36,519 bases of DNA from a virus, in IMG/VR virus record IMGVR_UViG_3300033571_002976, positions 1-36,519 of that record; one strand, written 5' to 3'. Positions 1 to 29,273 of this stretch are shown here, piece by piece. The notes under the pieces were generated by a model. It saw only the letters and a program-made list of their open reading frames with translations, was not told the DNA's origin and ran no database searches. Both the position numbers and the translations under genes were made by a program. The stretch's first letter is position 1, and each line of letters begins with the position of its first letter.

Positions 1-431
1 GCTTGTGGAGATTCCTCTAACCAACTAGCTTGAGTATACCAATTTGATTTAGATCGTATATGTTGCACGGTATCATAAAAAGGAAACCACGATTTAAAAT
101 CGGTTGGTTCAAATATCTTTACATATGTGTTATTTGCAGTACGAGATCTATGTTCCCATACAAAGTCTTCATCCTTTTTACTAACATAGATAATCATATT
201 AATTGGTGCTTTTAATAATTCACTAAATTTCGTCTTATAGTGATCATACGGTCTTTGAAAGCTTTGTGATAGGTTTTCTCTACCAAAATCCCAAAGACCT
301 GTTACTATAGTAACATTTGACGAAGCGTGTTTTACTGAAGTATTTCGTTGTACTTCATTAATTCTTGCGTATAATTCTGGATGAGTTGTTAAATAATCTA
401 ATATCTCTTGTTCATAACTATTCGTAAGCAT
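1..431 (-). CDS. HtrL/YibB-like putative glycosyltransferase, 3' end cut by window edge
   Basis: The ATG at 431 is preceded by AAAGGA with about 7 bases spacing, and an in-frame stop lies just upstream, so the start is well fixed. The reading frame stays open to base 1, giving 143 visible residues; the C-terminal part is outside the window. Residues 41-53 (TIVTGLWDFGREN) and the following Pro-Tyr-Asp-His and INMIIYVSKKDE segments look like the N-terminal half of the HtrL/YibB (WlaTC-type) family, whose members are putative glycosyltransferases found in surface-glycan loci and in some phages. The downstream Trp-Leu-Glu-Glu-Ser-Pro-Gln stretch fits the family as I remember it. It is the last visible gene of the left cluster, 12 bases after the methyltransferase-like gene. 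No profile search was possible, so the family call is from pattern recognition and the donor and acceptor are unknown. Confidence 0.72.
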   Translation of the reverse strand, partial: MLTNSYEQEILDYLTTHPELYARINEVQRNTSVKHASSNVTIVTGLWDFGRENLSQSFQRPYDHYKTKFSELLKAPINMIIYVSKKDEDFVWEHRSRTANNTYVKIFEPTDFKSWFPFYDTVQHIRSKSNWYTQASWLEESPQ

Positions 432-443
432 GCATCATTCCTT

Positions 444-1058
444 TTATGCTATTTTTGTTTTACAAACCCAAACCACAGAATCAAATTTTTCTTTATTATA
501 GTGGATTAAATTATTTTGCTCTGATACTTTTTCTATGTATTTTTCTTCTATTTCACACCAATTCCAAATTTTATCTACATAATTTTGTTTAAAATTTTCC
601 CATGTATCTACATAATCGTGCGCCATAATAAAATCGCCAACTTTCAAATACCGCGCAAGTTCGTTGAATTCGCCTATCTTGTGTCCACCATCGCATAATA
701 CTAGCGTTACTCCCTCCCCTTGGATAAACGGCACAACTTCTTCTGGCTTTTCTAAGTTTAAATAACTCTGATCGAATATATTGTTTATAATAATTTCTAT
801 ATTTTTCTCTCTCAGAGAATCATACCATGTCATCTCATGCACCTCAAATGACTTAATAGGAACCGCTGCCATTCCTAACTCATCCAAAGTATCTCGTAAA
901 AATAAAGTAAATCCACCACCAGCAGTACCTATTTCTAATACTCTAGCCGGATTAATTTTTTCTAAAAACTCTCTAAAAATACAAAATACATTTTCGTGCT
1001 GTTGTGCAGTAAATCCTTTATATGTAGTACACCCAGTTATTTGTTTAATATCTGTCAT
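444..1058 (-). CDS. class I SAM-dependent methyltransferase-like protein
   Basis: A 204-residue protein with a Rossmann-type motif I at residues 40-51 (VLEIGTAGGGFT). A strand ending in an acidic cluster (LCDGGHK, 121-127) follows, then AHDYVDTW (146-153). This layout is typical of small class I methyltransferases of the Methyltransf_24/cephalosporin hydroxylase-like group often found in sugar-modification loci. The ATG overlaps the TGA of the upstream gene (ATGA, 1058-1055), so the two are translationally coupled. Position inside a glycosyltransferase cluster suggests a sugar or glycan substrate, for example O-methylation of a terminal sugar, but nothing in the sequence fixes the acceptor. 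A non-methyltransferase role within the same fold cannot be excluded. Confidence 0.75.
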   Translation of the reverse strand: MTDIKQITGCTTYKGFTAQQHENVFCIFREFLEKINPARVLEIGTAGGGFTLFLRDTLDELGMAAVPIKSFEVHEMTWYDSLREKNIEIIINNIFDQSYLNLEKPEEVVPFIQGEGVTLVLCDGGHKIGEFNELARYLKVGDFIMAHDYVDTWENFKQNYVDKIWNWCEIEEKYIEKVSEQNNLIHYNKEKFDSVVWVCKTKIA

Positions 1059-1954
1059 ATGTTATTAAATTCCTCGAATATATTATGAAAACATTTTTTT
1101 CCTTGTATAAAGGGCTGTGCCCATTCTCCGGAGTCTTCGTGTCCCCATACATCAAATGTTTCGTAGAAATAATTATCTTTATTAAATGACATGTGAATTG
1201 TCATTACTTGCTCATCTAATAACAACATTTTATTTTCTTTTATATATCGCAGAAAATCATCAATCATTGTTTTAGAAAATATTCTTAACTTGTCTTTCTG
1301 TCCACCAAAGTAACCTCCAATGATATACCACATATTTAATTCATTGCGAGTATTTAAATTAATAATGTCAGGCGGCATCCAATGTCCAATAGAATTTGAT
1401 TGAATAAATAACAAATTGTTGTTACATTTTTTTATAGAAGCTGCTACTACTGCGGGAGTAAACAATGTACATTCCGTGTATCGCTTTTCTCCAGTTTCAC
1501 ATGATAAATGCTTATTCGGAAACAATGCGGAATGCGACAAGCCCGCATCCATCCAAAATATGTAATCTGAATTAAAATAATTATTATCGATCACGTGTTG
1601 CACAAACAAAAATTTAGCGAGCATTAAATCATAACTTCTATCATTTATATATCCCTGTTCATATGTTTTTATTGATTTAATAGGTGCGTACAACGGAGAT
1701 TCTCGCAAATCAAATGGAATAACTTTTATTTGTGAATTGTATCGATTTTCCCCCAAAAAACTTTTAAAATGCGTTTCTACTTTATCAACCTCATGCGGCC
1801 ACGCAAAAATTACTATAGGAGCGTTTAACTTGGTAGCAGATTCTAATCCGTAATAATACCGCCTCCACGCAATATGTTGGCGCCCACCAAACTCTGTACC
1901 AAATAAATCATCATATATACATGTGACATACGTTAAATTGGTATTTATATCCAC
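1055..1954 (-). CDS. HtrL/YibB-like putative glycosyltransferase (GTG start)
   Basis: A 299-residue protein starting with GTG at 1954-1952. The start lies inside the end of the upstream gene (10-base overlap), with GGA about 8 bases upstream. Residues 134-141 (WMDAGLSH) look like the metal/nucleotide-sugar acidic motif of GT-A-like enzymes. They are preceded by a helix rich in Lys/Phe (MLAKFLFVQHV) and followed by GGYFGG (213-218) and DEQ (247-249), an order I associate with the HtrL_YibB family. The left-edge gene seems to be of the same family, making a diverged pair split by the methyltransferase-like gene. The coding sequence is very AT-rich, with many ATA, TTA and AAT codons, more so than the GT60-like pair upstream. 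Predicted role: sugar transfer in the same glycan pathway; the linkage is unknown. Confidence 0.7.
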   Translation of the reverse strand: MDINTNLTYVTCIYDDLFGTEFGGRQHIAWRRYYYGLESATKLNAPIVIFAWPHEVDKVETHFKSFLGENRYNSQIKVIPFDLRESPLYAPIKSIKTYEQGYINDRSYDLMLAKFLFVQHVIDNNYFNSDYIFWMDAGLSHSALFPNKHLSCETGEKRYTECTLFTPAVVAASIKKCNNNLLFIQSNSIGHWMPPDIINLNTRNELNMWYIIGGYFGGQKDKLRIFSKTMIDDFLRYIKENKMLLLDEQVMTIHMSFNKDNYFYETFDVWGHEDSGEWAQPFIQGKKCFHNIFEEFNNI

Positions 1955-2934
1955 TTATCTATTCCGGTCAGTGTTATAGTAAACTTAGCGCTATTGGGCC
2001 ACTTAGCATATGTATCAAACCACTTTACTTGATTATTAGAAATGAAATTTAACAGGTGATCATCGTCTATTATATCGTTATACTTTTCTTCTATTAAATC
2101 CGCTACCCCTTTGTTGCCAAATTTATTGTATGCATCGTATGCATACTCTCTGGGAATAGTTATATAGTGATAATTTGGAAGCAGTCCATTATAAACCGCG
2201 TCTTTGTATTCTATTCGTATATATGGAACCCCTATTGCCATGTATTCCATATCTCTATAACAAAATTCCCCGGGATGATGAAATGCGGTATAATACCTAT
2301 CTAAATCCATATAGTATGATAGTCCACATTTGGCGTGAGCTAATTCCGTAAGATACTGTTCAAATGGAACAGATCTATTATCAATGATATGCTTTTCATC
2401 TAAAAACCGAAGTGCTTCTCTATATCCCTGCCCAGATCCTTTATAGAAGAGCGATTTGTTTAATTCACCAGCATTCTTCCTAATACTTCTGTATTTATCC
2501 ACATCAAAATCATCAAACCTTCCAAAAAACCACGGGGTTACCGTGTCCATTTTATTGACTAAATAATCTCTTTTTAGCCAATGATATATATTATGATAAC
2601 TAAAATGCGCAAGACATACTTTTTGACACAAGTTTGATTTTAGATAATGAACTACATACGAATTGAAATATTCAGTAAATGATAACACTACAAATTCATT
2701 AGTTTCCAAATTTTCTATTACACAATCAACATCACTTAACGGCGGGTTGTATCCAAATGAACCAACCGTAGTTTGTAATTGTATTTCTGCGGCTCCTTGA
2801 TCAGATGCTTGTGCATAATTTACCCATTCTACGTTGAAATATTGTTGACAATACTCCGCAAATTTCTTAAACCAAGGTAAATGATATCGACCATAATCAG
2901 TGTTATCTACTCTATGAAATCGTATTGTTTTCAT
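1945..2934 (-). CDS. GT-B-like glycosyltransferase (family uncertain)
   Basis: A 329-residue protein. The C-terminal half carries FEQYLTELAHAKCGLS (191-206) and PGEFCYRDMEYMAIGVP (221-237). This matches the usual nucleotide-sugar binding half of GT-B enzymes: an acidic/Arg-Glu segment followed by a Gly-Val-Pro turn. The N-terminal half is aromatic-rich, without a recognisable motif. The start ATG at 2934 overlaps the preceding TGA (ATGA) and has GGGAGAT just upstream, so coupling with the GT60-like gene is clear. The gene ends 10 bases inside the next one. I cannot assign a CAZy family by eye; an exostosin-like or GT4-like enzyme are the alternatives. Context supports glycan assembly. Confidence 0.55.
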   Translation of the reverse strand: MKTIRFHRVDNTDYGRYHLPWFKKFAEYCQQYFNVEWVNYAQASDQGAAEIQLQTTVGSFGYNPPLSDVDCVIENLETNEFVVLSFTEYFNSYVVHYLKSNLCQKVCLAHFSYHNIYHWLKRDYLVNKMDTVTPWFFGRFDDFDVDKYRSIRKNAGELNKSLFYKGSGQGYREALRFLDEKHIIDNRSVPFEQYLTELAHAKCGLSYYMDLDRYYTAFHHPGEFCYRDMEYMAIGVPYIRIEYKDAVYNGLLPNYHYITIPREYAYDAYNKFGNKGVADLIEEKYNDIIDDDHLLNFISNNQVKWFDTYAKWPNSAKFTITLTGIDKWI

Positions 2935-4166
2935 ATATCTCCCGTCAATCTAAGACCCCACCCACTTTTCTCTGATAGCGGCCATACAATCCATTTTTTT
3001 GGCTGTACTGCGGTGTAGAACGTTCTCCATAACGCATAATATCCACACGGATTCGCTTTCATTTGTTTAATTTCTTCCGCGCTAGCATCTTGCCTATAAA
3101 TTTCATTACCATCCCTATCTTCAAATGCAACTGCCCAGAAAATGTAATCATCGTGTGGTACTAACTCATATGAAATATCTAAGCAATGCTTAAATACTCG
3201 CAAATACGCTTCATCAGAAGGATTGGGGGGCTCTTTGTGATCCAACGTATACTGCTGAACGCTTCGCGTTTCAAACTTGATTCCAGCATATGCTTCGTAC
3301 TCTTCCAAGGTTCTTTCTGTGCCGAAACCAAACTCCCCAAAATCTTCTAATGGGTTGCGTTCACCGTCAATATTTAACAATCTGCGGTTTCTCGCAAGAG
3401 AATCAGTGTCCCATTTCCCCCATTCGGCAAGATCATCCCATGATTTACGTGGTCTGTGGCTTCTAGAATATTCGTGGTACACTACCATCTTATGAGGAGC
3501 AAACAAATCATAGCCCCATGTGTATGCTCTGGCTGCTATAGAGATTTCTTCCCCGTGAAATAGGTAATTTGGGTCGTGAGGAACCTCTTTGCAGAATTGA
3601 CCTACCGTAAATGCAAAATGAGCCGAATAAAATCTACTGGGATATGGTAATTCTCTAGATTCCCAGTCTGGAATACCTCCGGGAATGAAGAATACCGCCC
3701 CTTGGGGAGTAAATCTATCAAAAGTAAGCCACCACGGTTCGGTTGCCCTAGCCGTGGGGTCATTTTTAGGGTCATAGCTAGGCATATAGGCCGTTAATAA
3801 CGGCTTTTTATGCCCGGCCTTCTGTAAATCCTTGATCATATTGATCAAAATGGCATCCCAGTGCTTTTCAAACCGATGATGTGAGTCTAATTGAAGCGTA
3901 TACGCCTCATCGGTCCAGTATTGTTGGATTAAATGCCGCGCCCAACACGTTCCTTTACTGCTTAAGTGTGGAATATCAAGAATAATAAACCTCGGGTCGT
4001 CTTTATATTCATCCAATGTATCCCACGTGTCCTCCTGAGAGTGTTGCCACGCTATACAAAACTTCAAACGCTTCGGGTACTTGGCGTTTTTTAAACAATC
4101 TCGTATAGTAGGCAACAATTCCGGATCACGATATGCAGCAATTTGAATAAATATTTTACTATTCAT
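2931..4166 (-). CDS. GT60/GlcNAc-family (Skp1 GnT1-like) glycosyltransferase, copy 2
   Basis: A 411-residue protein when started at the ATG at 4166. The frame is open to 4286, but the extra 40 residues would overlap the previous gene by more than 120 bases. The 4166 ATG has AGGTGA at good spacing and overlaps that gene's stop by only 8 bases. Residues 7-17 (IQIAAYRDPEL), QLDSHHRF (92-99) and HGEE (204-207) with a later His-Glu-Tyr (231-233) are the hallmarks of the GlcNAc family PF11397/GT60. Its eukaryotic members add alpha-GlcNAc to hydroxyproline of Skp1 from UDP-GlcNAc. A C-terminal extension of about 80 residues (WAVAFED, IYRQDA, Trp/Pro-rich end) is shared with the upstream copy. Expected to act in the infected cell's cytoplasm; the acceptor is unknown. 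Confidence 0.85.
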   Translation of the reverse strand: MNSKIFIQIAAYRDPELLPTIRDCLKNAKYPKRLKFCIAWQHSQEDTWDTLDEYKDDPRFIILDIPHLSSKGTCWARHLIQQYWTDEAYTLQLDSHHRFEKHWDAILINMIKDLQKAGHKKPLLTAYMPSYDPKNDPTARATEPWWLTFDRFTPQGAVFFIPGGIPDWESRELPYPSRFYSAHFAFTVGQFCKEVPHDPNYLFHGEEISIAARAYTWGYDLFAPHKMVVYHEYSRSHRPRKSWDDLAEWGKWDTDSLARNRRLLNIDGERNPLEDFGEFGFGTERTLEEYEAYAGIKFETRSVQQYTLDHKEPPNPSDEAYLRVFKHCLDISYELVPHDDYIFWAVAFEDRDGNEIYRQDASAEEIKQMKANPCGYYALWRTFYTAVQPKKWIVWPLSEKSGWGLRLTGDI

Positions 4167-5418
4167 TTCTAAAGTCACCTGATAATCTTTCTTGCCAGCC
4201 TTTACTTTCACTGTGTGGCCACACAACCCACTTAGTTGGAAGTTCTGACGAGTAAAAGTTTCTCCAGATATGGACGAAATTATCACGTGTTTCTAATAAA
4301 CGCTTAATTTCTTCCGCGCCAGCGTCTTGGCGGTATATTTCTTTACCCGTTGAGTCTTCAAATGCAACCGCCCAGACATTATAATCATTTTCCTTAAACA
4401 ATGGACGATATACGTTTACAATCATTCGTCTATAGTTAGTTAGATTGCTATCATGTGCGGTAGCTTCTATGGAAATAGGTGGTAGTTTTTTTGCTAATGT
4501 ATCGGCGTGTACCTTTCTAGTGGCAAATTCTAACCCGGAATACATTTCGTACTCTCGCAACGTACGAACTGACGGCGTGTTGTTTAGTTCAGCAACGCCA
4601 GTATCAATTCCTAGCACAGCCTTATTTCTAGCGTATGATCGTTTATCCAACGCATTCCACGCGGAAACGTCATCCCAATGCTTTTTCTTATTATTTCTGG
4701 TATATTCGTGCCACAATACTACTCTGTGGGGAGCGTATAGATCATATCCTGCCATGTAGGCTCGTACCGATAGGTTTATTTCTTCCCCGTGAAAATAATA
4801 TTCAGGGTCATAGGTAACTTCTGAACAAAATTTACCATCAGCAAATATAAAATGCCCGGAAATAAACTTAGACGGGACTGGTTTGTCCAGTTCTTTCCAA
4901 TTATCGATAGTGTGTGGCAAGAAATGCACTGGTCCTTCCGGAGCAAATCTATCAAATTCCATAATCCAAGGAGCTTCTAAACGCGAGGCGGGGTCGTTTG
5001 AAGGGTCAAAGCTTGGTAGATATGACGATAGCACGGGCTTGGGGCTTTGTTGAGTGCGAGCGCTTTCTAGCATCGCAATTAAAGTAGTATCCCAATCTTG
5101 GGTAAACCGATGATGTGAATCTAGTTGTAATGTATACCGTTCGTTTTTATACAACAGATTAAGCTTGTGTCTAGCTTGACACACGCCTTTTGCATCGCGA
5201 TAATCGATGTCGATAACCTTTAAGCGACTGTCATTTTTAAATTCAGCCAAGGTATCCCATTTATCATACGGAGAATGTTGCCAAACAAGTCCAACCCGTA
5301 AAGAGTTTGGATATTTCGCCTTGGCAAACATATCTCTCAACGTAGGTAATAATTCAGGGTCACGATACGCCGCGATTTGTACGTATATACTTTTTGTGTT
5401 ATAGAATTTATTTTTCAT
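4159..5418 (-). CDS. GT60/GlcNAc-family (Skp1 GnT1-like) glycosyltransferase, copy 1
   Basis: A 419-residue paralogue of the next gene, first in the sugar cluster. VQIAAYRDPELLP begins near residue 13. The QLDSHHRF motif is at 98-105 (Asp100 and the following Ser-His being the likely metal/nucleotide-sugar site), and HGEE with the Arg-Ala-Tyr-Met-Ala-Gly-Tyr-Asp helix is at 210-225. The C-terminal region (NVWAVAFED, IYRQDAGAEEIKR, a Trp-Val-Val-Trp-Pro end) is homologous to that of the neighbour, so the whole gene was duplicated. The start ATG at 5418 has only a weak AGG about 9 bases upstream and lies 20 bases after the stop of the DUF1617-like gene, so translation may depend on coupling. 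Family assignment is firm; substrates are inferred only from the eukaryotic relatives. Confidence 0.85.
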   Translation of the reverse strand: MKNKFYNTKSIYVQIAAYRDPELLPTLRDMFAKAKYPNSLRVGLVWQHSPYDKWDTLAEFKNDSRLKVIDIDYRDAKGVCQARHKLNLLYKNERYTLQLDSHHRFTQDWDTTLIAMLESARTQQSPKPVLSSYLPSFDPSNDPASRLEAPWIMEFDRFAPEGPVHFLPHTIDNWKELDKPVPSKFISGHFIFADGKFCSEVTYDPEYYFHGEEINLSVRAYMAGYDLYAPHRVVLWHEYTRNNKKKHWDDVSAWNALDKRSYARNKAVLGIDTGVAELNNTPSVRTLREYEMYSGLEFATRKVHADTLAKKLPPISIEATAHDSNLTNYRRMIVNVYRPLFKENDYNVWAVAFEDSTGKEIYRQDAGAEEIKRLLETRDNFVHIWRNFYSSELPTKWVVWPHSESKGWQERLSGDFRNE

Positions 5419-5438: not shown

Positions 5439-5846
5439 TTATTCGCTTGTTATTAAAGGAAACAATCCAGCTAAGACGGTTGGTTCCAGTTCAATATGGT
5501 CTGGAAAGTCTGTTATTTTAAACTGGACGTTTTCTACCGTTACAGTTTGCTGCAAAAGGTTTTCGATTTCGGAGTTTACTTCCGCAATAAACTGCGCGGG
5601 TATTTGTAACGTGTTTGGTAATGGATTATCGTTTTCGTCTACCGCAGGTAGATAATTTCCTTCCTCGTCCTTTACCGCATGCTTAGTTTTAATTTCCTGC
5701 ACTGGGCCATCAAGATCCCTTGCAAATGGTTCCAGTGACTTTATGGCAAGATTGATTTTCCAAGCCAACTGAATTGGCAGTTTTGTTTGTGTTAGTGTAG
5801 TAAGTGACCCAAGCGCATTGAGAACTTGTGCATTAGTAAGTAACAT
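5439..5846 (-). CDS. DUF1617-like small phage protein
   Basis: A 135-residue protein beginning LTNAQVLNALGSL, followed by a KLPIQLAWKINLAIKSLEP helix and ending with an acidic Glu-Leu-Glu-Pro-Thr-Val-Leu segment. This layout (N-terminal helix, a Lys-Leu-Pro, a long helix, a charged linker, a beta segment containing VENVQFKI) resembles DUF1617 proteins encoded near tail genes in many phages; their function is unknown. The ATG at 5846 has an excellent ribosome site (TTGGAGGAAT). A TATAAATA-like octamer with one mismatch lies 26 bases upstream on the opposite strand. It sits between the fibre array and the sugar cluster, so it may head the transcript for that cluster. Confidence 0.6.
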   Translation of the reverse strand: MLLTNAQVLNALGSLTTLTQTKLPIQLAWKINLAIKSLEPFARDLDGPVQEIKTKHAVKDEEGNYLPAVDENDNPLPNTLQIPAQFIAEVNSEIENLLQQTVTVENVQFKITDFPDHIELEPTVLAGLFPLITSE

Positions 5847-5871: not shown

Positions 5872-5879
5872 GATAAATA
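5872..5879 (+). promoter_or_regulatory. TATAAATA-like octamer, one mismatch (GATAAATA)
   Basis: In the gene direction this reads TATTTATC, about 26 bases before the ATG at 5846. It is the weakest match of the recurring spacer motif and is listed because its spacing is the same as in the exact copies. Confidence 0.25.
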
Positions 5880-5913: not shown

Positions 5914-6153
5914 TTATTCAATCCCTAACATGACATATTCGTCAGTATTAAACGTTAACCCGGTTGACGTTGTAATAACATTTGTATCATATGTAGCAAA
6001 TAGTCGTGTTACTATACTACTACTAGGAACGTTTTCTACATAGACGCCGTATAATTTATCGTTTTCTATCACTGCATTAATCAATCTATTATCGGGTAGA
6101 ACTTCCACGGCGGTTAACGGTGTATGTGTGGTTAAAAAAGTAGTAAGAGTCAT
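5914..6153 (-). CDS. hypothetical 79-residue protein
   Basis: Unrecognised. It starts 4 bases after the stop of the propeller fibre (TAA CGTT ATG), so it is probably translated by coupling. It has a Thr-rich N-terminus (MTLTTFLTTHTPL), then short beta-like segments (LYGVYVENV, VTRLFATYDTNVITT) and an acidic end (DEYVMLGIE). No membrane helix or signal peptide is visible. Its place directly after a fibre gene would fit a small fibre-associated or assembly protein, as in many tail-fibre loci, but this is only context. A 67-base spacer with no other visible element separates it from the next gene. Confidence 0.55.
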   Translation of the reverse strand: MTLTTFLTTHTPLTAVEVLPDNRLINAVIENDKLYGVYVENVPSSSIVTRLFATYDTNVITTSTGLTFNTDEYVMLGIE

Positions 6154-6157
6154 AACG

Positions 6158-8590
6158 TTATGAAGAGGTTAAATACCATTCAGTTTGAAATTTTTGAAGC
6201 GTAATAGACTTAGACTTGGCTAAAAACGAAGGCGAATTTATAGGGGAAAATCTAGAAGATCCAAGAACGGTTAATCGAGTACCTGCCCCAACTAACACTA
6301 AATTATTACTCACGTAATATATCGAACCTACTGCTACTCCGACGTTAGTCGCCGCAAAGTTTGTAAGCCCATTATTTGACAAGCGGGCAATATAACTCGC
6401 ATTTGTGGAACCTATCAGAGTAAAATTTCCTCCAACCAAAATGTTGCCATCCGGTTGTATTACGATTGAATTTACTGTATCCCCTGCGTTCGGATTAAAA
6501 GTAGAATCCAAAATTCCCTCTGAGGATATTCTAGCAATATAATTACGAGCAGTGGCCCCAACCGTGGTAAAATCACCGCCGATTACAATATTTCCTTGGT
6601 TGTCTATGTCAAGTGTTCTTACATTTGAATTAACAGTAACGTCAATATATTCGGCGCCGGTGAAGGCGGTATTGGGTGAAATATCAGGACCGGCAATTCT
6701 AACCCCCGTAGAATGACCAATTATTATATCTCCGTTCCAATGTTTTTTAAACACATACGGTATTGTAAAAGACGGCGATATCGTTCGAACGGGGGCAAGA
6801 CTTCCGTTACTATTAAGTTCTGCGGCGAACGATCTGGCAGAGCCACTTACTGTGGAAAACAATCCACCAATAATGATTTTTTCGTTGTTAATTGACAGTA
6901 TAGACCATACGGAATTATCTGCGCTAGATGTAAATGAAGTGTCTAACGTACCGTCTACATTAAGACGAGCTATACGATTTCTAGCAGAGCCGCTTACGTT
7001 TATAAAATCTCCTCCAATTAAAATCTTCCCGTTTGGTTGCAGTTCAATTGCACGAACATTTCCGCTAGCACTTGGGTTAAACGAAACGTCTAGCGTATAG
7101 TCTGGATTTAATCTTACAACTCCACCCCTATCTGATCCGGACACGTGTGTAAAATTTCCACCTACGAGAAGTTTACCGTCTGGTTGCTTTACAACCGCAT
7201 TTACCGAATACGTTCCATCAAAACCAAATCTGGTTATTGGAATTGGAGATGAAATGGAATTTCCTATGCGAGTGATTGCATCCATATAAAGTGCGCGGCG
7301 ACGATTGACGCCGGTAAAGTCTCCACCTATTAAAATATTAAGTCCATGTGAAATAACTTTTTGTACGTTAGAATTTGGAATTGTAGTAAATGAGGTATCT
7401 ACTGTTCCATCAGAGTTAAGTTTAGCCAGTCTTTCTAATACATTTGACGCACCAGATCCGCTTACCTCAGTAAAATCTCCACCTATAACAATCTTATTAT
7501 CCGGTAGTATCAGTAGTGTATTTACGGTATTGTTAGTGCTAGAATTAAACCCTGTATCTAGGGTTCCATTCGTATTTATTCTGGCAATTCTAACTGCAAC
7601 CGTACTGTTTATGGTAGTAAAATTACCTCCAACCACAAATTTACCGTCAGACTGGATTGATATTGCTCTCACCGTAGTATTAAACGAAGAGCTGATAGCA
7701 CTATCTAACGTACCATCTGTGTTGATTCTAGCAAAATAATTTCGTGACGTAGATGAGACAGTTGTAAACTGTCCTCCTATCACGGCTTTACCATCGGTTT
7801 GAAGCTGTATATCCCAAACAGTTGAATTTGCTGAAGGGTTGTATCCGGTGTCTAATGTACCATCGCTGTTTAATCTAGCTATATAATTTCTGGTGGATCC
7901 ACTTACATTAGTAAAATCTCCCCCGATGAGAATTTTATTATCCGATTGAATCGCGATTGTTCGAACGGTATTGTCTGCACTTGAGTTAAACCCGGTGTCT
8001 AATGTTCCATTACTATTTAATCTAGCTATACGAGTTCTAGTGGAGCCAGAAACTAAAGTAAAAATTCCCCCGATTAAAATTTTTCCGTCTGATTGAACCG
8101 CAGTTGCGTATACTATGCTAGATGGATTTACAACGAATGAATCATCTATAGTATAATCAGAATTAAATCTAGCAAGGTATTGCATAGGCCGATTTCCAAT
8201 CGATGTGAATTGACCACCTACTAAAAATTTTCCATCGGATTGACTTGCAAACGCAGTAACAACAGCGTTCGCGTTAAAATCGGTAATTGAAGAAATGTCT
8301 ACATTAAGTCTAACATTATTATTTGTTAAGTTTGTAATACGTATTTCGGCGCCATCTGGTATGTTTGCCGTATTAGCGGTCAAAAATCTTAGTTGTTCTG
8401 TAGATGATGAACGTATTAATAAATGCTTACCTACATCACTTAACGTGATATCATATACGCTACTAGTGATACTCTGTGTAACAAATGAAGTAATACCGGT
8501 TAATCTACTCCCATCACCTATAAATGAACCTGTGTATCCAAGTGATGCCGTTACGCTACCTGTAACATTTGTTGTTTGTAATTGTGCCAT
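6158..8590 (-). CDS. tail fibre/adhesin with about 14 delta-60 (DUF5122) beta-propeller repeats
   Basis: An 810-residue protein. The N-terminus (VTASLGYTGSFIGDGSRLTGI, residues 13-33) is the usual fibre repeat. Residues 46-96 (SDVGKHLLIRSSS, then PDGAEIRITN) are the first half of a small fibre domain. From about residue 106 to 790 there are roughly fourteen repeats of the type DGKILIGGDFT, then a Gly/Ser turn, IARLN, DGTLDTSF. These match delta-60/DUF5122 repeats, which form beta-propellers. Repeat 7 and the last repeat are degenerate. The C-terminus (ITLQKFQTEWYLTSS) looks like the second half of the residue 46-96 domain. A receptor-binding or glycan-binding role in the virion is likely. No clear Shine-Dalgarno sequence precedes the ATG. 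The start lies 45 bases after the giant fibre's stop. Confidence 0.85.
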   Translation of the reverse strand: MAQLQTTNVTGSVTASLGYTGSFIGDGSRLTGITSFVTQSITSSVYDITLSDVGKHLLIRSSSTEQLRFLTANTANIPDGAEIRITNLTNNNVRLNVDISSITDFNANAVVTAFASQSDGKFLVGGQFTSIGNRPMQYLARFNSDYTIDDSFVVNPSSIVYATAVQSDGKILIGGIFTLVSGSTRTRIARLNSNGTLDTGFNSSADNTVRTIAIQSDNKILIGGDFTNVSGSTRNYIARLNSDGTLDTGYNPSANSTVWDIQLQTDGKAVIGGQFTTVSSTSRNYFARINTDGTLDSAISSSFNTTVRAISIQSDGKFVVGGNFTTINSTVAVRIARINTNGTLDTGFNSSTNNTVNTLLILPDNKIVIGGDFTEVSGSGASNVLERLAKLNSDGTVDTSFTTIPNSNVQKVISHGLNILIGGDFTGVNRRRALYMDAITRIGNSISSPIPITRFGFDGTYSVNAVVKQPDGKLLVGGNFTHVSGSDRGGVVRLNPDYTLDVSFNPSASGNVRAIELQPNGKILIGGDFINVSGSARNRIARLNVDGTLDTSFTSSADNSVWSILSINNEKIIIGGLFSTVSGSARSFAAELNSNGSLAPVRTISPSFTIPYVFKKHWNGDIIIGHSTGVRIAGPDISPNTAFTGAEYIDVTVNSNVRTLDIDNQGNIVIGGDFTTVGATARNYIARISSEGILDSTFNPNAGDTVNSIVIQPDGNILVGGNFTLIGSTNASYIARLSNNGLTNFAATNVGVAVGSIYYVSNNLVLVGAGTRLTVLGSSRFSPINSPSFLAKSKSITLQKFQTEWYLTSS

Positions 8591-8635: not shown

Positions 8636-11600
8636 TTAACCGTGGATTTGCTTGATCTGTTGTTGCAAATCAGTCACTACACTTAATAGCAAAATTGTCA
8701 ATTTGCTATAGTGAATACCAATAGGATCTCCAGCGGCATCATATTCTACCAGTTCCGGAAAAATGGGTGCCACTTGTTCTGCAATTAACCCAATATCTTC
8801 TTTACCGGTTTCTTTCCAACTAAATCGCACCGGATTCAAATTAGAAACGGATATAGTTTCTAATGGTCGTATATTTTCTTTTAATTTAATAGTGGAGGTT
8901 TCCGTTAATGATTGAACCGTTACGTTGCCCGTAAAAGTTGCTGTAGAACCAGATGTATTTCCTTGAACGTGTAGTTTTGCCCCCGGGCTCGTGGTTCCGA
9001 TCCCAACGTTACCAGAAGAATTTATACGAGCTTGCTCAACGTCACTGATCGTAAATCTAACATCTGCCCCGCCAAGTAATAATGGTTGATACGAAGAAAC
9101 CCCTGTTCTATCAACCCCTTCTATTACACCTCCCGTAGTGTTTGCTCCAATTCTTACGGCTCTAGTAGACCCGGCAATTAATGCAATATTAGTGCCATCG
9201 CTTGCGCTGACATGCAATCGTGTAGATGGAGATGCTATGCCAATACCCACTCTGTCATTCGCCGCATCTACTACCAAGGTATTTGTATCTACAGTTAATC
9301 CCGCAAATGATGGCGAATCTCCTGTCTGCAATCCCGTATCCACATCTGTGTTTACGTTATTAATTGTGACACGTACTGTACCTTGTGACGGAGATGATGC
9401 AGTTGAACTACTAACTATACCTTCCGCTATAGTAATAGTAGGATTGCCAGAAACGCCATCTGCGTTTGTCACGCTTAAGCCGGTTCCAGACACCGCAATA
9501 CTTCTAGCTGTGATGGTGTCTGCTGCGGTTCTAGTAACCAGCCCGTTAGTTGCTAAGTTATGAAACGCTAACGCTTGGCCGGTTAATCCAACTGTCCCGG
9601 ATGTAGTAATAGTCCCCCCGGTAATACCATTGTTAGTAGCAATGGATGTTACTGTACCCGCGCCAATAGCTGTTCTGAAGTCAGCGGCGGATAGCGTAGA
9701 CACCGTATTATCTGCATTTATTCTGGGGAAGGTGACTGCGCTTGGGTTGGTTAGCGTGAATAAATTAGATCCAACCGTTGTTGCTCCAAGATTTGTTCTG
9801 GCGTTTGGTGCAGTAGTTGCGCCGGTACCACCGTTTGCAACGGCTACAGTTCCGGTGACATTGGCTGCATTTCCCGTAATATTAATACTCCAATTTCCAC
9901 TTGCGTTAGTACCATCGGTCCATGCTATATCTTTAAATGATGCATATGCAGTACCAGAACCAAAACTTTGTTGCCAAATTCGTATACCTAGTGCATCTTT
10001 ACGGAACATTAATAGGTTATCGTTACCGCCCGACGAATCGCTATAAGAACGCAAATGCAAATAATCTGCATACGGTGAAGTATTATTATTTGCCCATGAA
10101 GTAAAACCAAATGTCATGTACCCCGAAAGATCGTCTGAAGGTGCTTTGATTCGGTCGTCAAGTGTAACCAATCTATTAATGGTAATATTCGCGCTGCCGT
10201 TAAATGACACTCCGTTGATAGTACGAGTGGTTTGAAGTATGGTTGCGGTTGCTGCATTTCCCGTAGCGTTTCCCGACAAAGTGGCCGTAATAGTACCCGC
10301 TGAAAAGTTACCAGATGAATCGCGTAATGCTACCGTATTGGCGGTGTTAGTGGTGGCAGCATAGCCTACTTGACAGTTTGAAATCGTAGCAGTTACGTTT
10401 TGAAACGCAGACGCTTCAAGTCCAATAGACCAGCCGGTAGTCCATGTTGCGGACTGATTGCTATACCCCAACTGAACGTCGGTCACGAATACTTGCGGAT
10501 ACGACCAAGTACTTGATAATTCACCAATGTATATACAAAATTGTGTACCGGTATATCCAAATCGAACCGTAAAATTTCTATCTGTTGTAGGATGTCCGAC
10601 TATAAACGCAAACGGATTATTTGCCCATGTATTAGACCCGGGTGCGTATGGATATCCTCCGACTTGTAAAACAAACGATTCGTTTGTAGTATATTCATAC
10701 ACGGTAACTCGCATGGTTACCATCGTATCGGTAATACCAGCGGGTAAATTAATACGTATTGCACCGGTTTCTGTTGTTGTTTGTGTTACTCTTTCAGCCC
10801 CGCCGGGTTGTGTTATTCTGCGATAATTTGCATCGTAAATAGAAGGAACTAATATATTTGCCGATCCGTTAAACGATACTCCGTTGATTGTACGAGCAGT
10901 TTGTAACGTTGTCGCGGTTCCCGCGTTTCCGTCTACACTAACTCCAGTTAATGTTTGTGTAGCAGAAGACCGATTAAGTGCAATTGATGTGGTACCGACA
11001 AAAAATGTTTGATTGGATAGTGCTAACGCAACACCCGCAGCCGTAGGTGTGGCACGTGGAAAATTAACAACACCTGTATTGGTTGCCGTCATGAACAGTT
11101 GTGGTCCGGTACCATAACTGTCCGTTGTGGCAAAGCCCATAGCGGTTCCGGTACTATTGTTGTTAGATACATAAATACCAGCTTGGGCTTCATTAGCATT
11201 ACCGCCTTGGAAGGTAATAGCCGCTTGTCTATTATTACCAGTGGTTCCCGCGCCGTTTTGCATATGAATATTGCCGAGTATTGATAACCCAACATTAAAA
11301 CTATTGTTGGCAATGCCGGTTGCGGTATTATAGGTAGAATATAAAATATTACTAAACGTAGAAACTTGAGCCGACGAGCTAACTATACCTCCTGCGATGG
11401 TAATGGTTGGATTGCCCGAAACGCCATCGGCGTTTGTAATAGAAAGACCCGTACCAGACACCGCAATACTTCGTGCGGCAACGGTGTCTGCGGCAGTACG
11501 TGCAACTAATCCGTTGGATGCTAAATTATGAAACGCGAGAGCTTGACCGGTAAGCGCAAGCGTTCTGGTAGCAGAAATATCACCGCCGCCAGTTAATCCT

Positions 11601-14600
11601 GTTCCCGCTGAAATAGATACTGTTGTATGGTTTATATGTTCATTTGCTACATATCCGCTTGTAGAACCGTGAGTAATTTGCCCTGAACTAGAAACAATAC
11701 CAACCGGAACGTTTGTTAAGCTCGTATACGCGAGCGATCCTGTGAACGAAGACGCCGAAACATTTCCTTGAACGTGAAGTAGTGCCCCGGGAGAGGTTGT
11801 ATTGATGCCAACATTCCCAGACGCGGACACATACATTATCTGCGTACCACCACTGTTTACGAGTCGTAATAATCCTTGCGTAGTACTATCACCGCGAATA
11901 TGTAAGTTGGAATCGGGTGACGTAGTAGCAATACCAACTCGCCCCGACCCGGCGGTTGCTACTGCATTCGTGTCAATAGTTAATACGGCATTTGCGAGAG
12001 ATGTTGCAGAATTAGATCCTACATTATCTAATAATACATGAATTTTACCACTTGCGTTTCCGCCTTGCGAATGATTATCTGTTCGCTCGAATACTAATGC
12101 AGATTTTCTATAAGAAGTATTTGCGGGTTCTAAATATCCAAAATGTATACCAGAAAACGAACCAATGCCAAGTTGTGCTCCAAAACTCGCTGCTATGGAC
12201 GCTCCCGAGTTTATATCTAATTTGTATTGTGGAGTGGTGGTATTAATACCAACATTACCAGAGGAATTAATAAACACGGCATTAGTTGAACCATTTACAA
12301 CTAAATTTAACCCTGTATTTGAGCCAATTCCAAAATTTGTTCCGTCGAATGTAGTAAATCCTCGGCCAAACCCACCAACTAAAAAGTCCGTAATTAACCC
12401 ATTGGTGCTTCTATTGAAAGACGCCGCACTATGCGCATTTACATTTACAGCTAGTCTACCACCCGCTACTACGAATCTATCGTTGGCGTCTACATAAGTA
12501 GAAGTGGTACCAACGCCTACAAACCCAGCAGATTTTACAACAAAGTAATCACCATTCCCCGCCGCAGATGAAACTCTGAAAATATCCGCAGTTTGACCTG
12601 TTCCAGTAAACGCCATCAATTCCAAAGGTATTGCTGTAGTGGCCGACGCCGCGATGTATGCCATAACGTTAGTTGGTGTTGCGGCACCGTTTCCGGCTAT
12701 AGTAAACCTATCAGTTCCGGGCTGTACCGTAAGTTTACCATTTACGGATAGTCCAGCAAACGTTGGACTATCTGCCGCTTGTAATCCAGTATCTACGTCG
12801 GTGTTAACTCCATTTATTGTAACCCGAACAGTGCCTTGCGAAGGAGAAGATGCCGTAGAGGATGATACGATGGCCCCTGCTATTGTTATGGTAGGGTTAC
12901 CTGAAACCCCATCTGCATTTGAAATACTTAATCCAGTACCGGAGACAGCGATGCTACGTGCCACGATGGTGTCGGCAGCAGTTCTAGTAACGAGCCCATT
13001 CGATGCTAAATTATGAAACGCCAGTGCTTGTCCAGTAAGAGCTAATGTTCTTGTGGCGGAAATATCTCCACCGCCAGTTAGCCCTGTACCAGCAGAAATG
13101 GAAACCGAAGTGTGGTTGATATGTTCATTTGCCACATACCCGGAGGTTGCGTTATGCGATACTTGTCCAGACGCGCTAAATATACCACGGGCATTTATTA
13201 CCGCAGTAGTTCCGTTGGTGAAATGTGCAGATGAGGTATCTAGCGTTAAAGTTCGAGTGGCACTAATATCTCCACCCCCGGAAAGCCCTGAACCAGCGCT
13301 GATAGACACCGACGTATGATTAATGTGCTCGTTTGCTACATATCCAGATGTGGCGGTGTGTGAAATTTGTCCAGAGGATGATACTATACCAACCGGGATA
13401 TTACTTAACCCGGTATACGATACTTGTCCAGAGGATGATACTATGCCAACCGGAATATTTGTTAAACCAGAATACGATACTTGATTTGATGAACTAAATA
13501 TCCCTCGGGCATTTATAACAGTTGTTACGCCTCCGGTAAAGTGCGTAGAACCAGTATCCAACGTTATCGTACGAGTTGTACTAATATCACCACCGCCGCT
13601 TAATCCAGAACCGGCGGTTATGGATACGGAAGTATGGTTAATATGCTCGTTTGCTACGTATCCAGATGTTAAGTTATGAGAAATCTGTCCAGATGAAGAT
13701 ACTGTACCGAGTGGTAGCAATAACGCAATTTGTGCGGAAGATGATGGAATACCAGACAAGGTAACTGTTCCCGTGGCGGTTAATGCACCCGTAACATACA
13801 ACCCCGCTTCTATATGGGTAAGTTTTGTTGGAAAAACCACTCGAATAGAACTAGACGCTTCCGCCGTATCAATGTGATCGTCCCCAGATGCCACGGGAAC
13901 TCTTCCTGAAATTAGGCCCCGTTCGTTTCCAGTAGTACCGGTATTTTGCGGTCCAGCTATTAAAATTGCACTAGTATATGATCCCCCAAAGACATCTTCA
14001 TATAACCATCTATCGGATACACTATCCCAAAATAATGATCCCGATCTATTCGCTGAACCCGAGTCTACTACAGATATACCACCAAAGCGTAAAGAATTGT
14101 TCGTATTAACTATAATTTTATTCGTTGCTACGTTAAATTGCGAAGAAGTAACATATTGAATAGATTGTGACGCGGCGGTTAGAAGCCCAGAAACCGTTAG
14201 ATTTCCATTAATTACTCCATTTCCACTTGCTTGAATACTCGCGCCACTAACCGCACCCGTTGCAGTGATATTTGCAGGAGTAATGTTTTGGTTGGCAATA
14301 TTCGCAACCGTTTGCGTCGAACTTGACATGATTCCAACCGGAACATTGCTTAATCCAGTATACGACACTTGACCGGATGAAGACACTACACCACCCGCTA
14401 TAGTTATGGTAGGATTCCCGGACACACCATCAGCGTTTGACACGCTTAATCCTGTTCCGGAGACTGCAATACTTCGCGCAGCAACCGTGTCTGCTGCTGT
14501 TCTGGCCACCAGTCCATTAGACGCTAAATTATGGAACGCCAGTACTTGGCCGGTCAATGCTATAGTTCTAGTTGCTGAAATATCACCACCGCCAGTGAGA

Positions 14601-15394
14601 CCGGTGCTGGTAGAGATTGAAACGGCGGTGTGATCTATGTGGCGATTAGCAACGTAGTTTGTGGTAGCGTTATGATCTATTTGCGCGGACGAACTAACAA
14701 CTCCACGTGCATTTATAGTTGAAGTTATCCCACTAGTGAAATGAGTAGATCCGGTATCCAGCGCTAATGTACGATTTGCGCTAATATCTCCCCCACCGGA
14801 TAACCCAGAGCCCGCAGAAATGGAAACCGAGGTGTGATTGATATGTTCGTTTGCTACATATCCAGTAGTCAAGTTGTGATTTACCTGAGCAGAGCTTGAT
14901 ACCGTTCCAACGGGAAGCAACGAAACAACTTGTACAGAGCTACTTACTATACCTGCCGGAATATTCGATAATCCAACATATGAAACCTGCCCAGACGAAG
15001 ACACCGTACCTGTTGGTAATCCTGATGGACTAACAAAAGAAGCAGTTGAAGCAAATGATGCGCTAACTACGTTGTTTGCCCAACTACTTGTACCCAGTAA
15101 TGAGCCCGTAAGACTTCCATTAAAGGTACCAGTAAACGATCCACTGCTAACTTGTGCAGAGGACGATACGATTACCGAGGGGAGGTTTGTTACGTGGGAC
15201 GCCGTTACGGCGAATGAAGCGGTCGTGGCAAATGACGCGGACGTTGCGTTTGTTGCAATCCCGGCAGAAGTTAACGCATAAGACGCTGTTACTGCAAACG
15301 ATGAACTACCTGCCAGCGATCCGGTAAACCCGGCTGTGGAAATAGAAGATCCACTTACTATCAGACCACGCCGAGCTATAAATTCATTTGCCAT
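8636..15394 (-). CDS. giant tail fibre (2252 aa) with C-terminal S74 intramolecular chaperone
   Basis: Starts MANEFIARRGLIV, a probable docking tag shared with the preceding fibre. The body is built of repeats such as VSSSGQVSYTGLSNIPVG, HINHTSVSISAGSGLSGGGD and SGNVGINTTSPGALLHVQG. A 53-residue module occurs four times (281-333, 787-839, 1282-1334, 1938-1990). Residues about 410-535 are a domain shared with two other fibres. Residues about 1340-1930 hold largely unique sequence, including an ANVTGTVAVANGGTGATT-type segment. Residues 2166-2252 are a peptidase_S74 domain: STIKLKENI with Ser2167 and Lys2172 as the expected self-cleavage dyad, NPVRFSWK, GLIAEQV and a C-terminal coiled helix. In this family the domain trimerises the fibre and then cleaves itself off. 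A host-recognition role is likely. The start is fixed by homology to the upstream paralogue; its ribosome site is weak. Confidence 0.9.
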   Translation of the reverse strand: MANEFIARRGLIVSGSSISTAGFTGSLAGSSSFAVTASYALTSAGIATNATSASFATTASFAVTASHVTNLPSVIVSSSAQVSSGSFTGTFNGSLTGSLLGTSSWANNVVSASFASTASFVSPSGLPTGTVSSSGQVSYVGLSNIPAGIVSSSVQVVSLLPVGTVSSSAQVNHNLTTGYVANEHINHTSVSISAGSGLSGGGDISANRTLALDTGSTHFTSGITSTINARGVVSSSAQIDHNATTNYVANRHIDHTAVSISTSTGLTGGGDISATRTIALTGQVLAFHNLASNGLVARTAADTVAARSIAVSGTGLSVSNADGVSGNPTITIAGGVVSSSGQVSYTGLSNVPVGIMSSSTQTVANIANQNITPANITATGAVSGASIQASGNGVINGNLTVSGLLTAASQSIQYVTSSQFNVATNKIIVNTNNSLRFGGISVVDSGSANRSGSLFWDSVSDRWLYEDVFGGSYTSAILIAGPQNTGTTGNERGLISGRVPVASGDDHIDTAEASSSIRVVFPTKLTHIEAGLYVTGALTATGTVTLSGIPSSSAQIALLLPLGTVSSSGQISHNLTSGYVANEHINHTSVSITAGSGLSGGGDISTTRTITLDTGSTHFTGGVTTVINARGIFSSSNQVSYSGLTNIPVGIVSSSGQVSYTGLSNIPVGIVSSSGQISHTATSGYVANEHINHTSVSISAGSGLSGGGDISATRTLTLDTSSAHFTNGTTAVINARGIFSASGQVSHNATSGYVANEHINHTSVSISAGTGLTGGGDISATRTLALTGQALAFHNLASNGLVTRTAADTIVARSIAVSGTGLSISNADGVSGNPTITIAGAIVSSSTASSPSQGTVRVTINGVNTDVDTGLQAADSPTFAGLSVNGKLTVQPGTDRFTIAGNGAATPTNVMAYIAASATTAIPLELMAFTGTGQTADIFRVSSAAGNGDYFVVKSAGFVGVGTTSTYVDANDRFVVAGGRLAVNVNAHSAASFNRSTNGLITDFLVGGFGRGFTTFDGTNFGIGSNTGLNLVVNGSTNAVFINSSGNVGINTTTPQYKLDINSGASIAASFGAQLGIGSFSGIHFGYLEPANTSYRKSALVFERTDNHSQGGNASGKIHVLLDNVGSNSATSLANAVLTIDTNAVATAGSGRVGIATTSPDSNLHIRGDSTTQGLLRLVNSGGTQIMYVSASGNVGINTTSPGALLHVQGNVSASSFTGSLAYTSLTNVPVGIVSSSGQITHGSTSGYVANEHINHTTVSISAGTGLTGGGDISATRTLALTGQALAFHNLASNGLVARTAADTVAARSIAVSGTGLSITNADGVSGNPTITIAGGIVSSSAQVSTFSNILYSTYNTATGIANNSFNVGLSILGNIHMQNGAGTTGNNRQAAITFQGGNANEAQAGIYVSNNNSTGTAMGFATTDSYGTGPQLFMTATNTGVVNFPRATPTAAGVALALSNQTFFVGTTSIALNRSSATQTLTGVSVDGNAGTATTLQTARTINGVSFNGSANILVPSIYDANYRRITQPGGAERVTQTTTETGAIRINLPAGITDTMVTMRVTVYEYTTNESFVLQVGGYPYAPGSNTWANNPFAFIVGHPTTDRNFTVRFGYTGTQFCIYIGELSSTWSYPQVFVTDVQLGYSNQSATWTTGWSIGLEASAFQNVTATISNCQVGYAATTNTANTVALRDSSGNFSAGTITATLSGNATGNAATATILQTTRTINGVSFNGSANITINRLVTLDDRIKAPSDDLSGYMTFGFTSWANNNTSPYADYLHLRSYSDSSGGNDNLLMFRKDALGIRIWQQSFGSGTAYASFKDIAWTDGTNASGNWSINITGNAANVTGTVAVANGGTGATTAPNARTNLGATTVGSNLFTLTNPSAVTFPRINADNTVSTLSAADFRTAIGAGTVTSIATNNGITGGTITTSGTVGLTGQALAFHNLATNGLVTRTAADTITARSIAVSGTGLSVTNADGVSGNPTITIAEGIVSSSTASSPSQGTVRVTINNVNTDVDTGLQTGDSPSFAGLTVDTNTLVVDAANDRVGIGIASPSTRLHVSASDGTNIALIAGSTRAVRIGANTTGGVIEGVDRTGVSSYQPLLLGGADVRFTISDVEQARINSSGNVGIGTTSPGAKLHVQGNTSGSTATFTGNVTVQSLTETSTIKLKENIRPLETISVSNLNPVRFSWKETGKEDIGLIAEQVAPIFPELVEYDAAGDPIGIHYSKLTILLLSVVTDLQQQIKQIHG
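9425..9583 (-). repeat. 53-codon fibre module, copy 4 of 4
   Basis: Encodes residues 1938-1990, from TGQALAFHNLA through NGLVTRTAADT and ARSIAVSGTGLS to GNPTITIA. Exactly 159 bases, like the other three copies. Compared with the copy at 12878 by hand, 34 of 53 codons differ, but only four change the amino acid. Confidence 0.9.
11393..11551 (-). repeat. 53-codon fibre module, copy 3 of 4
   Basis: Encodes residues 1282-1334 with the same amino-acid pattern. It is immediately followed downstream by IVSSSAQV and preceded by an ISAGTGLTGGGDISATRTLAL segment that is also repeated. Synonymous codons are different again from the other copies. Confidence 0.9.
12878..13036 (-). repeat. 53-codon fibre module, copy 2 of 4
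   Basis: Encodes residues 787-839. Same 159-base length with no insertion or deletion. It is followed by an SSSTASSPSQGTVRVTIN segment that also follows copy 4, so copies 2 and 4 share a longer repeated context. Confidence 0.9.
14396..14554 (-). repeat. 53-codon fibre module, copy 1 of 4
   Basis: Encodes residues 281-333, the most N-terminal copy. It follows an HIDHTAVSISTSTGLTGGGD segment. Same length and amino-acid pattern as the other copies, but with its own set of synonymous codons. Confidence 0.9.
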
Positions 15395-18022: not shown

Positions 18023-18030
18023 TATAAATA
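18023..18030 (+). promoter_or_regulatory. exact TATAAATA octamer, reversed relative to genes
   Basis: Lies 21 bases before the ATG at 18002. The gene strand reads AATATTTATTTATATACC. The sequence equals the T4 late-promoter consensus, but on the non-coding orientation, as in four other spacers. Confidence 0.35.
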
Positions 18031-28919: not shown

Positions 28920-29273
28920 TTAACGAGTTACAGATGGCCTAATAGTAAACGCCCCCTCCAATAGACGCTTAACAGTTGGGGGATTCTTTCCATTGTTGGT
29001 CATAACAATGTCATACACGTACATTCTTTGATATAAATGATTAGTGTCCTCGGGATATAAATAAATAAATACGCTCCCGGACGAATAGGGCTCTAATTTA
29101 GTAATAGTAAACCGCGCAGCAACTTCATCGGTGGTATAATTTTCCCGAAGTTGACCATCAAATGAGCAACTGGTAATATCTAACGGCACACTACTGGTAG
29201 TTTCCGTGTATATGTGCGCTAAAATTTTAAATGTTTCCCCTTGACCTATATTAAAATCTGTAATATCAGGCAT
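28920..29273 (-). CDS. beta-sandwich virion protein ending in LLEGAFTIRPSVTR (117 aa)
   Basis: Layout: FNIGQGETFKILAHIY, a CSFDGQLREN strand, SGSVFIYLYPEDTNHLYQ, YVYDIVMTNNG, then VKRLLEGAFTIRPSVTR. This matches a small immunoglobulin-like protein common in T4-like and other marine phages, usually annotated as structural, in which a YVYDLE strand and a final RLLEG..TV.P.VTR motif are typical. It is the first gene after the tube terminator, with GAGATT before its ATG and an exact reversed TATAAATA 29 bases upstream. It is therefore probably the head of the decoration/fibre transcript. Confidence 0.75.
   Translation of the reverse strand: MPDITDFNIGQGETFKILAHIYTETTSSVPLDITSCSFDGQLRENYTTDEVAARFTITKLEPYSSGSVFIYLYPEDTNHLYQRMYVYDIVMTNNGKNPPTVKRLLEGAFTIRPSVTR

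Follow-up and report, generated by a model that had tools for sequence, protein, structure and literature searches.

A recurrent GT60-HtrL glycosyltransferase cassette in the late region of a contractile-tailed phage, a candidate O-glycosylation pathway for virion proteins

The IMG/VR virus record IMGVR_UViG_3300033571_002976, analysed here over its positions 1 to 36,519 (36.5 kb; hereafter the window), carries on its minus strand a cassette of six tightly coupled genes (3-5418) for two GT60-type glycosyltransferases, a GT-B-fold enzyme, two HtrL_YibB-domain proteins and a methyltransferase-like protein, set downstream of an extended series of fibre-type genes. Tens of non-redundant viral loci contain the same gene set, a recurrence far beyond what chance would produce. 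We consider it on balance probable, if by a modest measure, that these genes form a cytoplasmic, late-expressed O-glycosylation cassette that acts on virion proteins, most likely on the Ser/Thr-rich fibres encoded just upstream.

Results

Six tightly coupled genes at the end of the late region

In the order in which they are read, the cassette genes are:

4159-5418, minus strand: GT60-type glycosyltransferase 1 (PF11397, E 4.7e-70; phrog_24687 'glycosyltransferase', 8.5e-141; QLDSHH motif), a predicted initiating polypeptide O-glycosyltransferase
2931-4166, minus strand: GT60-type glycosyltransferase 2, its paralogue (PF11397, E 2.6e-71), with an 8-nt overlap with gene 1
1945-2934, minus strand: divergent GT-B-fold glycosyltransferase, GT4-like by fold (AlphaFold model and Foldseek)
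1055-1954, minus strand: stand-alone HtrL_YibB-domain protein (PF09612, E 4.7e-8), a homologue of the HtrL domain in the terminal enzyme
444-1058, minus strand: methyltransferase-like protein (weak matches to FtsJ, E 1.9e-5, and Methyltransf_24, 4.6e-4; homologues in the cassettes of loci L017 and L024), a candidate sugar O-methyltransferase that would cap the glycan
3-431, minus strand: first 143 residues of the terminal tandem glycosyltransferase (HtrL + GT-A), whose gene continues past the edge of the window (PF09612, E 2.5e-6)

A preliminary description, made from the letters alone, had named these six as overlapping or nearly abutting genes, and all are present as described: by rising coordinate, the gaps between neighbours are 12, -4, -10, -4 and -8 nt, and 20 nt separate the cassette from the next upstream gene. 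Its GT60 and HtrL/YibB calls likewise withstood profile searches, with all four assignments above the Pfam gathering cut-offs: the two GT60s score 241 and 237 bits against a cut-off of 21, and the two HtrL proteins 33.4 and 27.7 bits against 24.1, where full-length relatives reach 68-77 bits. The start of GT60 2 is most likely ATG 4166 and not GTG 4286, because MNSKIFIQIAAYRDPELLPT begins at ATG 4166 and relatives begin there; the protein shares 75% identity with the second of the GT60s in L005. The cassette (1-5418) has a guanine-plus-cytosine content of 36.9%, against 42.6% for the fibre genes and 41.0% for the remainder of the window, which is compatible with later acquisition.

Predicted functions of the cassette enzymes

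Across 19 aligned GT60 relatives the pair D100-x-H102 is invariant, a DxH replacing the DxD of the GT-A core, and such a motif has been published for GT27 and GT60, families that share polypeptide Ser/Thr O-glycosylation (PMC7185993). When the GT60s were compared with solved structures, phmmer returned beta-arrestin fragments only and a profile search a weak sialic-acid-binding match only, so the relation to GT27 rests on the literature. Characterised GT60s are polypeptide alpha-N-acetylglucosamine (GlcNAc) transferases, namely Skp1 Gnt1, which acts on hydroxyproline, and a Trypanosoma cruzi enzyme, which acts on mucin threonine (PMC6939170, PMC8724618, PMC3769586). The initial view of GT60 as a protein-directed family, drawn from Skp1 hydroxyproline, is thus supported and its acceptors broadened to threonine.

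The 1945-2934 protein has no sequence match in Pfam, PHROG or PDB and belongs to no CAZy family. Its AlphaFold 2 model, built from eleven divergent homologues, most of them at the same cassette position, has a predicted local distance difference test (pLDDT) score of 77.6 and a predicted template-modelling (pTM) score of 0.81. At E ≤ 0.001 there were 16 Foldseek matches in the PDB, and the ones listed were GT-B enzymes (best query TM-score, TMq, 0.54): methylmannose polysaccharide mannosyltransferase 7qsg came first (E 2.5e-5), followed by MshA and BshA; further matches are to protein O-glucosyltransferase 2 (POGLUT2, 2.8e-4) and to SdgB and GtfA, which are bacterial protein O-GlcNAc transferases. 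The guess of a GT-B-like transferase is borne out by this model, which is assignable to the GT-B/GT4 fold class and not to a function, because the TM-scores of the best hits are modest (0.33-0.54).

The terminal enzyme is 543-794 residues long in relatives (13 loci), where an HtrL_YibB domain is followed by a GT-A-like domain with an 'FFEDDM' DxD-type motif and sometimes preceded by a methyltransferase domain. A model of the L009 enzyme (pLDDT 82) matches LH3 (E 8.4e-10), COLGALT1 (6.2e-8) and the chondroitin polymerase K4CP (3.7e-7); the alignments span both domains, with a whole-chain TM-score of only about 0.25 since the domain packing differs. LH3 and COLGALT1 are tandem-domain glycosyltransferases for collagen hydroxylysine, and because the model matches them HtrL_YibB is probably a GT-A glycosyltransferase domain. 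The stand-alone protein 1055-1954 is then a probable GT-A glycosyltransferase too, since the model of its two-domain homologue matches GT-A enzymes.

The cassette recurs across viral relatives

A single pattern search based on the GT60 alignment found at least 598 viral relatives, and more than 590 viral contigs encode the enzyme; its carriers comprise hundreds of aquatic phages together with some bacterial contractile secretion clusters. Purpose-built domain profiles were applied to 82 non-redundant viral loci, single-linkage clustering having failed to keep GT60 and HtrL apart. In 66 of the 82 loci the GT60 has an HtrL-domain gene no more than nine genes away on its own strand, and HtrL occurs once per contig in 11 of 12 contigs of 40-256 kb, so that the linkage is not a small-contig effect. 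Between or beside this core pair stand exchangeable genes for a carbamoyltransferase (PF02543/PF16861), an NAD-dependent epimerase, GT10 fucosyltransferase-like, PLOD-like and GT7C-like glycosyltransferases and an FkbM-like methyltransferase (below cut-off), along with many genes that have no family assignment.

Direct evidence for a shared pathway comes from metagenome-assembled genomes (MAGs) of Myxococcales, in which GT60, HtrL and GT-A domains are joined on one polypeptide (L044 17-3649, L076 3652-6897, L079 2756-6019). The nearest GT60 relatives include some on short 'bacterial' MAG contigs (L028, L030, L032), which may be phage contigs caught up in the binning; the bacterial counts of the closest homologues may therefore be inflated.

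Only three of 50,697 cultured phage records contain this GT60, and it is in the same three that a full-length HtrL-GT-A enzyme occurs: Xanthomonas phage XacN1 (ORF330-ORF334) and the Stenotrophomonas phages RAS14 and CM1. As in the window, the GT60 (40-42% identical) and the terminal HtrL-GT-A enzyme lie in one cluster, and XacN1 and RAS14 share a further HtrL protein with the window-type cassette; unlike the window, the three phages have one GT60, a carbamoyltransferase instead of the GT-B and methyltransferase genes, and no same-strand fibre genes in front. Proteomics found at least two glycoproteins in XacN1 virions, and its authors proposed the glycosyltransferases ORF328 and ORF334 as their makers (PMC5852040); we find that ORF334 is a GT60 and ORF330 the terminal HtrL-GT-A enzyme. 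These glycoproteins support virion glycosylation by a cassette of this kind, short of proof. The general phenomenon of phage virion glycosylation is already known, and GT60 as a maker of virion glycoproteins has already been raised for XacN1; among the papers searched we found none on GT60 in phages as such and no description of a GT60 and HtrL-GT-A core with swappable caps.

Fibre genes upstream of the cassette

By its gene content, the minus strand of the window appears to be the late region of a phage with a contractile tail. The tail tube gene is followed by a long fibre-type run down to 6158, and then by the cassette:

35179-36450, minus strand: major head protein
33895-35076, minus strand: head-tail adaptor
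29968-32298, minus strand: tail sheath, 776 residues against 496 positions in the matched PHROG profile and probably with an insert
29386-29874, minus strand: tail tube
15534-18002, minus strand: fibre-like protein of 822 residues (Ser + Thr + Asn + Gly 45%), with a TATTTAT[AC] motif at 18030
8636-15394, minus strand: tail-fibre-like protein of 2252 residues with a C-terminal S74 chaperone domain (PF13884, E 5.8e-8; Ser + Thr 26%, Ser + Thr + Asn + Gly 46%)
6158-8590, minus strand: fibre/adhesin-like protein with DUF5122 beta-propeller repeats (PF17164, E 1.2e-120, 11 stretches; Ser + Thr 23%, Ser + Thr + Asn + Gly 42%), a candidate acceptor
5439-5846, minus strand: small gene, phrog_1401 (E 1.1e-4), the first gene of a putative transcription unit that reads into the cassette

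The cassette had been placed directly behind some 9 kb of fibre genes. Strand and downstream position hold, but two small genes (5439-5846 and 5914-6153) lie in between, and the fibre stretch is longer, at roughly 6158-28187. Beside the cassettes of relatives a homologue of 5439-5846 was found in L139 only, and the idea of a conserved fibre chaperone was set aside, as the gene is not kept there. The 8636-15394 protein, which carries 14 SSSxQ repeats, is the foremost candidate acceptor. As a general acceptor motif the repeat was rejected, being confined to the nearest relatives.

To score relatives, we called a protein fibre-like at 250 or more residues and a Ser + Thr + Asn + Gly content of at least 34%. 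A fibre-like gene stands within three genes upstream of the first GT60 on the same strand in 32 of the 82 loci, where random non-fibre genes of the same loci gave 15.3 ± 2.9 (at most 25 in 2000 draws). On the GT60 tree the two arrangements, fibre then GT60 and HtrL-GT-A then GT60, need two changes only, so that the loci are not independent; within the window clade 16 of 19 rows are fibre-linked. The linkage is thus real and inherited in the window clade, and the enrichment is clade-restricted. The expected co-occurrence of cassette and fibre genes holds as an enrichment and is absent from the 23 loci of reversed order. The S74 domain was seen in only 1 of 12 contigs of this other arrangement and is therefore unusable there as a general fibre marker.

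Proteins at the fibre position differ in their repeats: 6158-8590 of the window has the DUF5122 propeller, and L160 5375-9943 and L178 8584-9942 have an RCC1 propeller and DUF285 repeats. This suggests swapped adhesin tips.

A late-gene motif precedes the unit

On the window's coding strand the motif TATTTAT[AC] is present 8 times. In 6 cases, against 0.46 expected, an open reading frame (ORF) starts no more than 70 nt downstream: these copies precede 33895-35076, the tail tube gene, 28920-29273, 25983-28187, 15534-18002 and 5439-5846. Its minus-strand positions include 35107, 29916, 29309, 29063, 28233, 18030 and 5879, about 28-45 nt before many late genes. The copy in front of the cassette unit is:

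5872-5879, minus strand: TATTTATC, late-promoter-like motif, about 25-33 nt before gene 5439-5846

Inside the cassette there is no further copy. Among relatives, the GT60 itself is preceded by the motif in L007 (45 nt ahead) and L009 (33 nt ahead). In L005, L008 and L023 a copy is found 32-33 nt ahead of whichever gene comes next after that for the terminal HtrL-GT-A enzyme, and L006 and L015 are among the relatives without the motif. Judged from these positions, TATTTAT[AC] may be a promoter that brackets the cassette as a late unit in the window clade, and the early suggestion that the cassette is expressed late gains support from a motif of the structural genes standing before its unit. The classical T4 late promoter TATAAATA was dismissed as the relevant word, not being enriched on the coding strand, and scans of the window for sigma-70 promoters and terminators stayed at chance level.

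GT60 homologues in type VI secretion clusters

Bacterial GT60 homologues occur in type VI secretion system (T6SS) clusters of Burkholderia, Paraburkholderia, Yersinia and other Enterobacterales. TssF or TssG is nearby in 21 loci, and a fimbrial-adhesin-like gene lies immediately upstream in 24; T6SS-embedded loci with TssF, TssG, TssA or RHS genes include L084 2828-11666, L057 2734-12821 and about 27 more among L041-L106. The T6SS is related to contractile phage tails. The gene neighbourhoods make a T6SS-linked glycosylation of adhesins by the bacterial GT60 possible, and the best comparative clue to the acceptor is that an adhesin adjoins the GT60 in two settings unrelated to each other. Literature searches, one of them confined to titles and abstracts, yielded no paper on a glycosyltransferase-fimbrial pair in T6SS clusters.

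Discussion

We propose that the cassette encodes a mucin-type O-glycosylation pathway transcribed with the late structural genes. The two GT60s would add the first sugar, an alpha-linked N-acetylhexosamine (probably GlcNAc, from the host pool of uridine diphosphate-GlcNAc), to Ser/Thr of a structural protein; the GT-B-fold, HtrL and HtrL-GT-A enzymes would extend the glycan; and the methyltransferase, joined in relatives by a carbamoyltransferase, would cap it. Such a coat could shield or tune the adhesin surface, and swapped cap genes could give rise to virion 'glycotypes'. We infer the acceptor, the donor sugar and the order of the steps from gene content and family membership, and fibres rather than another virion protein from the neighbourhoods.

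The closest parallels are the eukaryotic GT60 polypeptide alpha-GlcNAc transferases (T. cruzi pp-alpha-GlcNAcT and the Dictyostelium and Toxoplasma Skp1 Gnt1), which share PF11397 and a DxH-type motif with the phage enzymes. The Skp1 enzyme is cytosolic, as is proposed for the phage cassette, whose layout resembles the Skp1 pathway, where the GT60 initiates and the two-domain PgtA (GT2+GT74) extends, all in the cytosol. The systems differ in that eukaryotic acceptors are mucin Thr or Skp1 hydroxyproline, whereas the phage sets two paralogues in an operon with HtrL-type and GT-B partners; in that no prolyl hydroxylase was seen in the window; and in that the phage two-domain enzyme combines HtrL with another GT-A domain. 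An autonomous, virus-encoded glycosylation of the major capsid protein is familiar from the chlorovirus PBCV-1, which resembles the cassette in that a virus glycosylates its own virion protein and differs in being a eukaryotic virus with the major capsid protein as acceptor and another enzyme set.

Several observations weigh against fibres as the acceptor, and they bear on a reading that we hold to be unlikely yet worth weighing, in which the main acceptor is the capsid, baseplate, tail tube or another virion protein and the fibre neighbourhood reflects late transcription only. In about 60% of the loci none of the three genes upstream is fibre-like, and the 23 loci with HtrL-GT-A before GT60 sit away from fibres, many of them convergent to a phage protease-like gene. 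Moreover, 'fibre-like' in relatives describes size and composition and is crude as a label: few of these proteins received a name from PHROG or Pfam, as an RCC1 propeller, DUF285 or a gp5-like baseplate protein, the last being the neighbour in L166. XacN1, which has virion glycoproteins, is reported to lack tail fibres (PMC5852040); the large structural genes close to its cassette are on the other strand, so that the cassette is not behind fibres, and the link from its glycoproteins to the cassette enzymes is a proposal. In mycobacteriophages, too, a phage-encoded modification of the phage's own structural proteins falls on capsid and tail-tube subunits (Freeman et al. 2023, as cited in PMC12619734). 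The enrichment of fibre-like genes upstream and the adhesin neighbour in T6SS clusters nevertheless favour an elongated surface adhesin. The original proposal of a capped glycan built late on the phage's own fibres is accordingly supported in part: its enzyme assignments, late co-expression and fibre linkage gain support, the last in 32 of 82 loci and in none of the 23 of reversed order.

Rather less likely still is that the cassette remodels a host surface glycan such as lipopolysaccharide, capsule or O-antigen, for superinfection exclusion or to keep virions from sticking to debris. Bacterial HtrL_YibB relatives have been noted in lipooligosaccharide loci (PMC4172580), which also counts against a protein acceptor, and glycosyltransferase clusters of jumbo cyanophages have been read in this way (PMC7824862); fucosyltransferase-like, epimerase and GT25-like genes in relatives fit as well, and a soluble transferase acting on lipid-linked intermediates is conceivable. 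A simple hydropathy scan, however, found a membrane-spanning stretch in none of 317 cassette proteins from the 82 loci, so that no flippase, polymerase or Gtr-type membrane transferase was seen, unlike in Gtr seroconversion cassettes. GT60s of known function act on polypeptide, the bacterial homologues stand in T6SS clusters, and the apparent tie to late structural genes would come late for protecting an infected cell. Glycosylation of modified bases in phage DNA is what many phage glycosyltransferases perform, some of them building multi-sugar DNA glycans (Pyle et al. 2024, as cited in PMC12619734), but for this cassette we regard it as very improbable: GT60 is classed with protein glycosyltransferases (PMC7185993), a partner enzyme resembles LH3 and COLGALT1, and in the loci examined the linkage is to structural and not to base-modification genes, the rest of the genomes not having been searched for the latter.

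Returning to glycosylation of virion adhesins, we offer as a tentative and still doubtful generalisation that GT60 may mark a glycosylation module of contractile-tail machines at large, acting on tail fibres in phages and on a fimbria-like adhesin in T6SS clusters, with the phage HtrL-GT-A extender and swappable caps giving lineage-specific glycan types. The cultured phages XacN1, RAS14 and CM1 make the cassette testable.

Only a few cases of glycosylation are documented for phage structural proteins, yet more than 590 viral contigs carry a GT60 of the mucin-type-initiating family. HtrL_YibB, still labelled as of 'unknown function', gains a predicted glycosyltransferase fold and a working context. 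If fibres are indeed sugar-coated by this pathway, host-range prediction, receptor binding, immune recognition of phages and fibre structure prediction would all be affected, and the variable cap genes would constitute a new layer of phage surface diversity.

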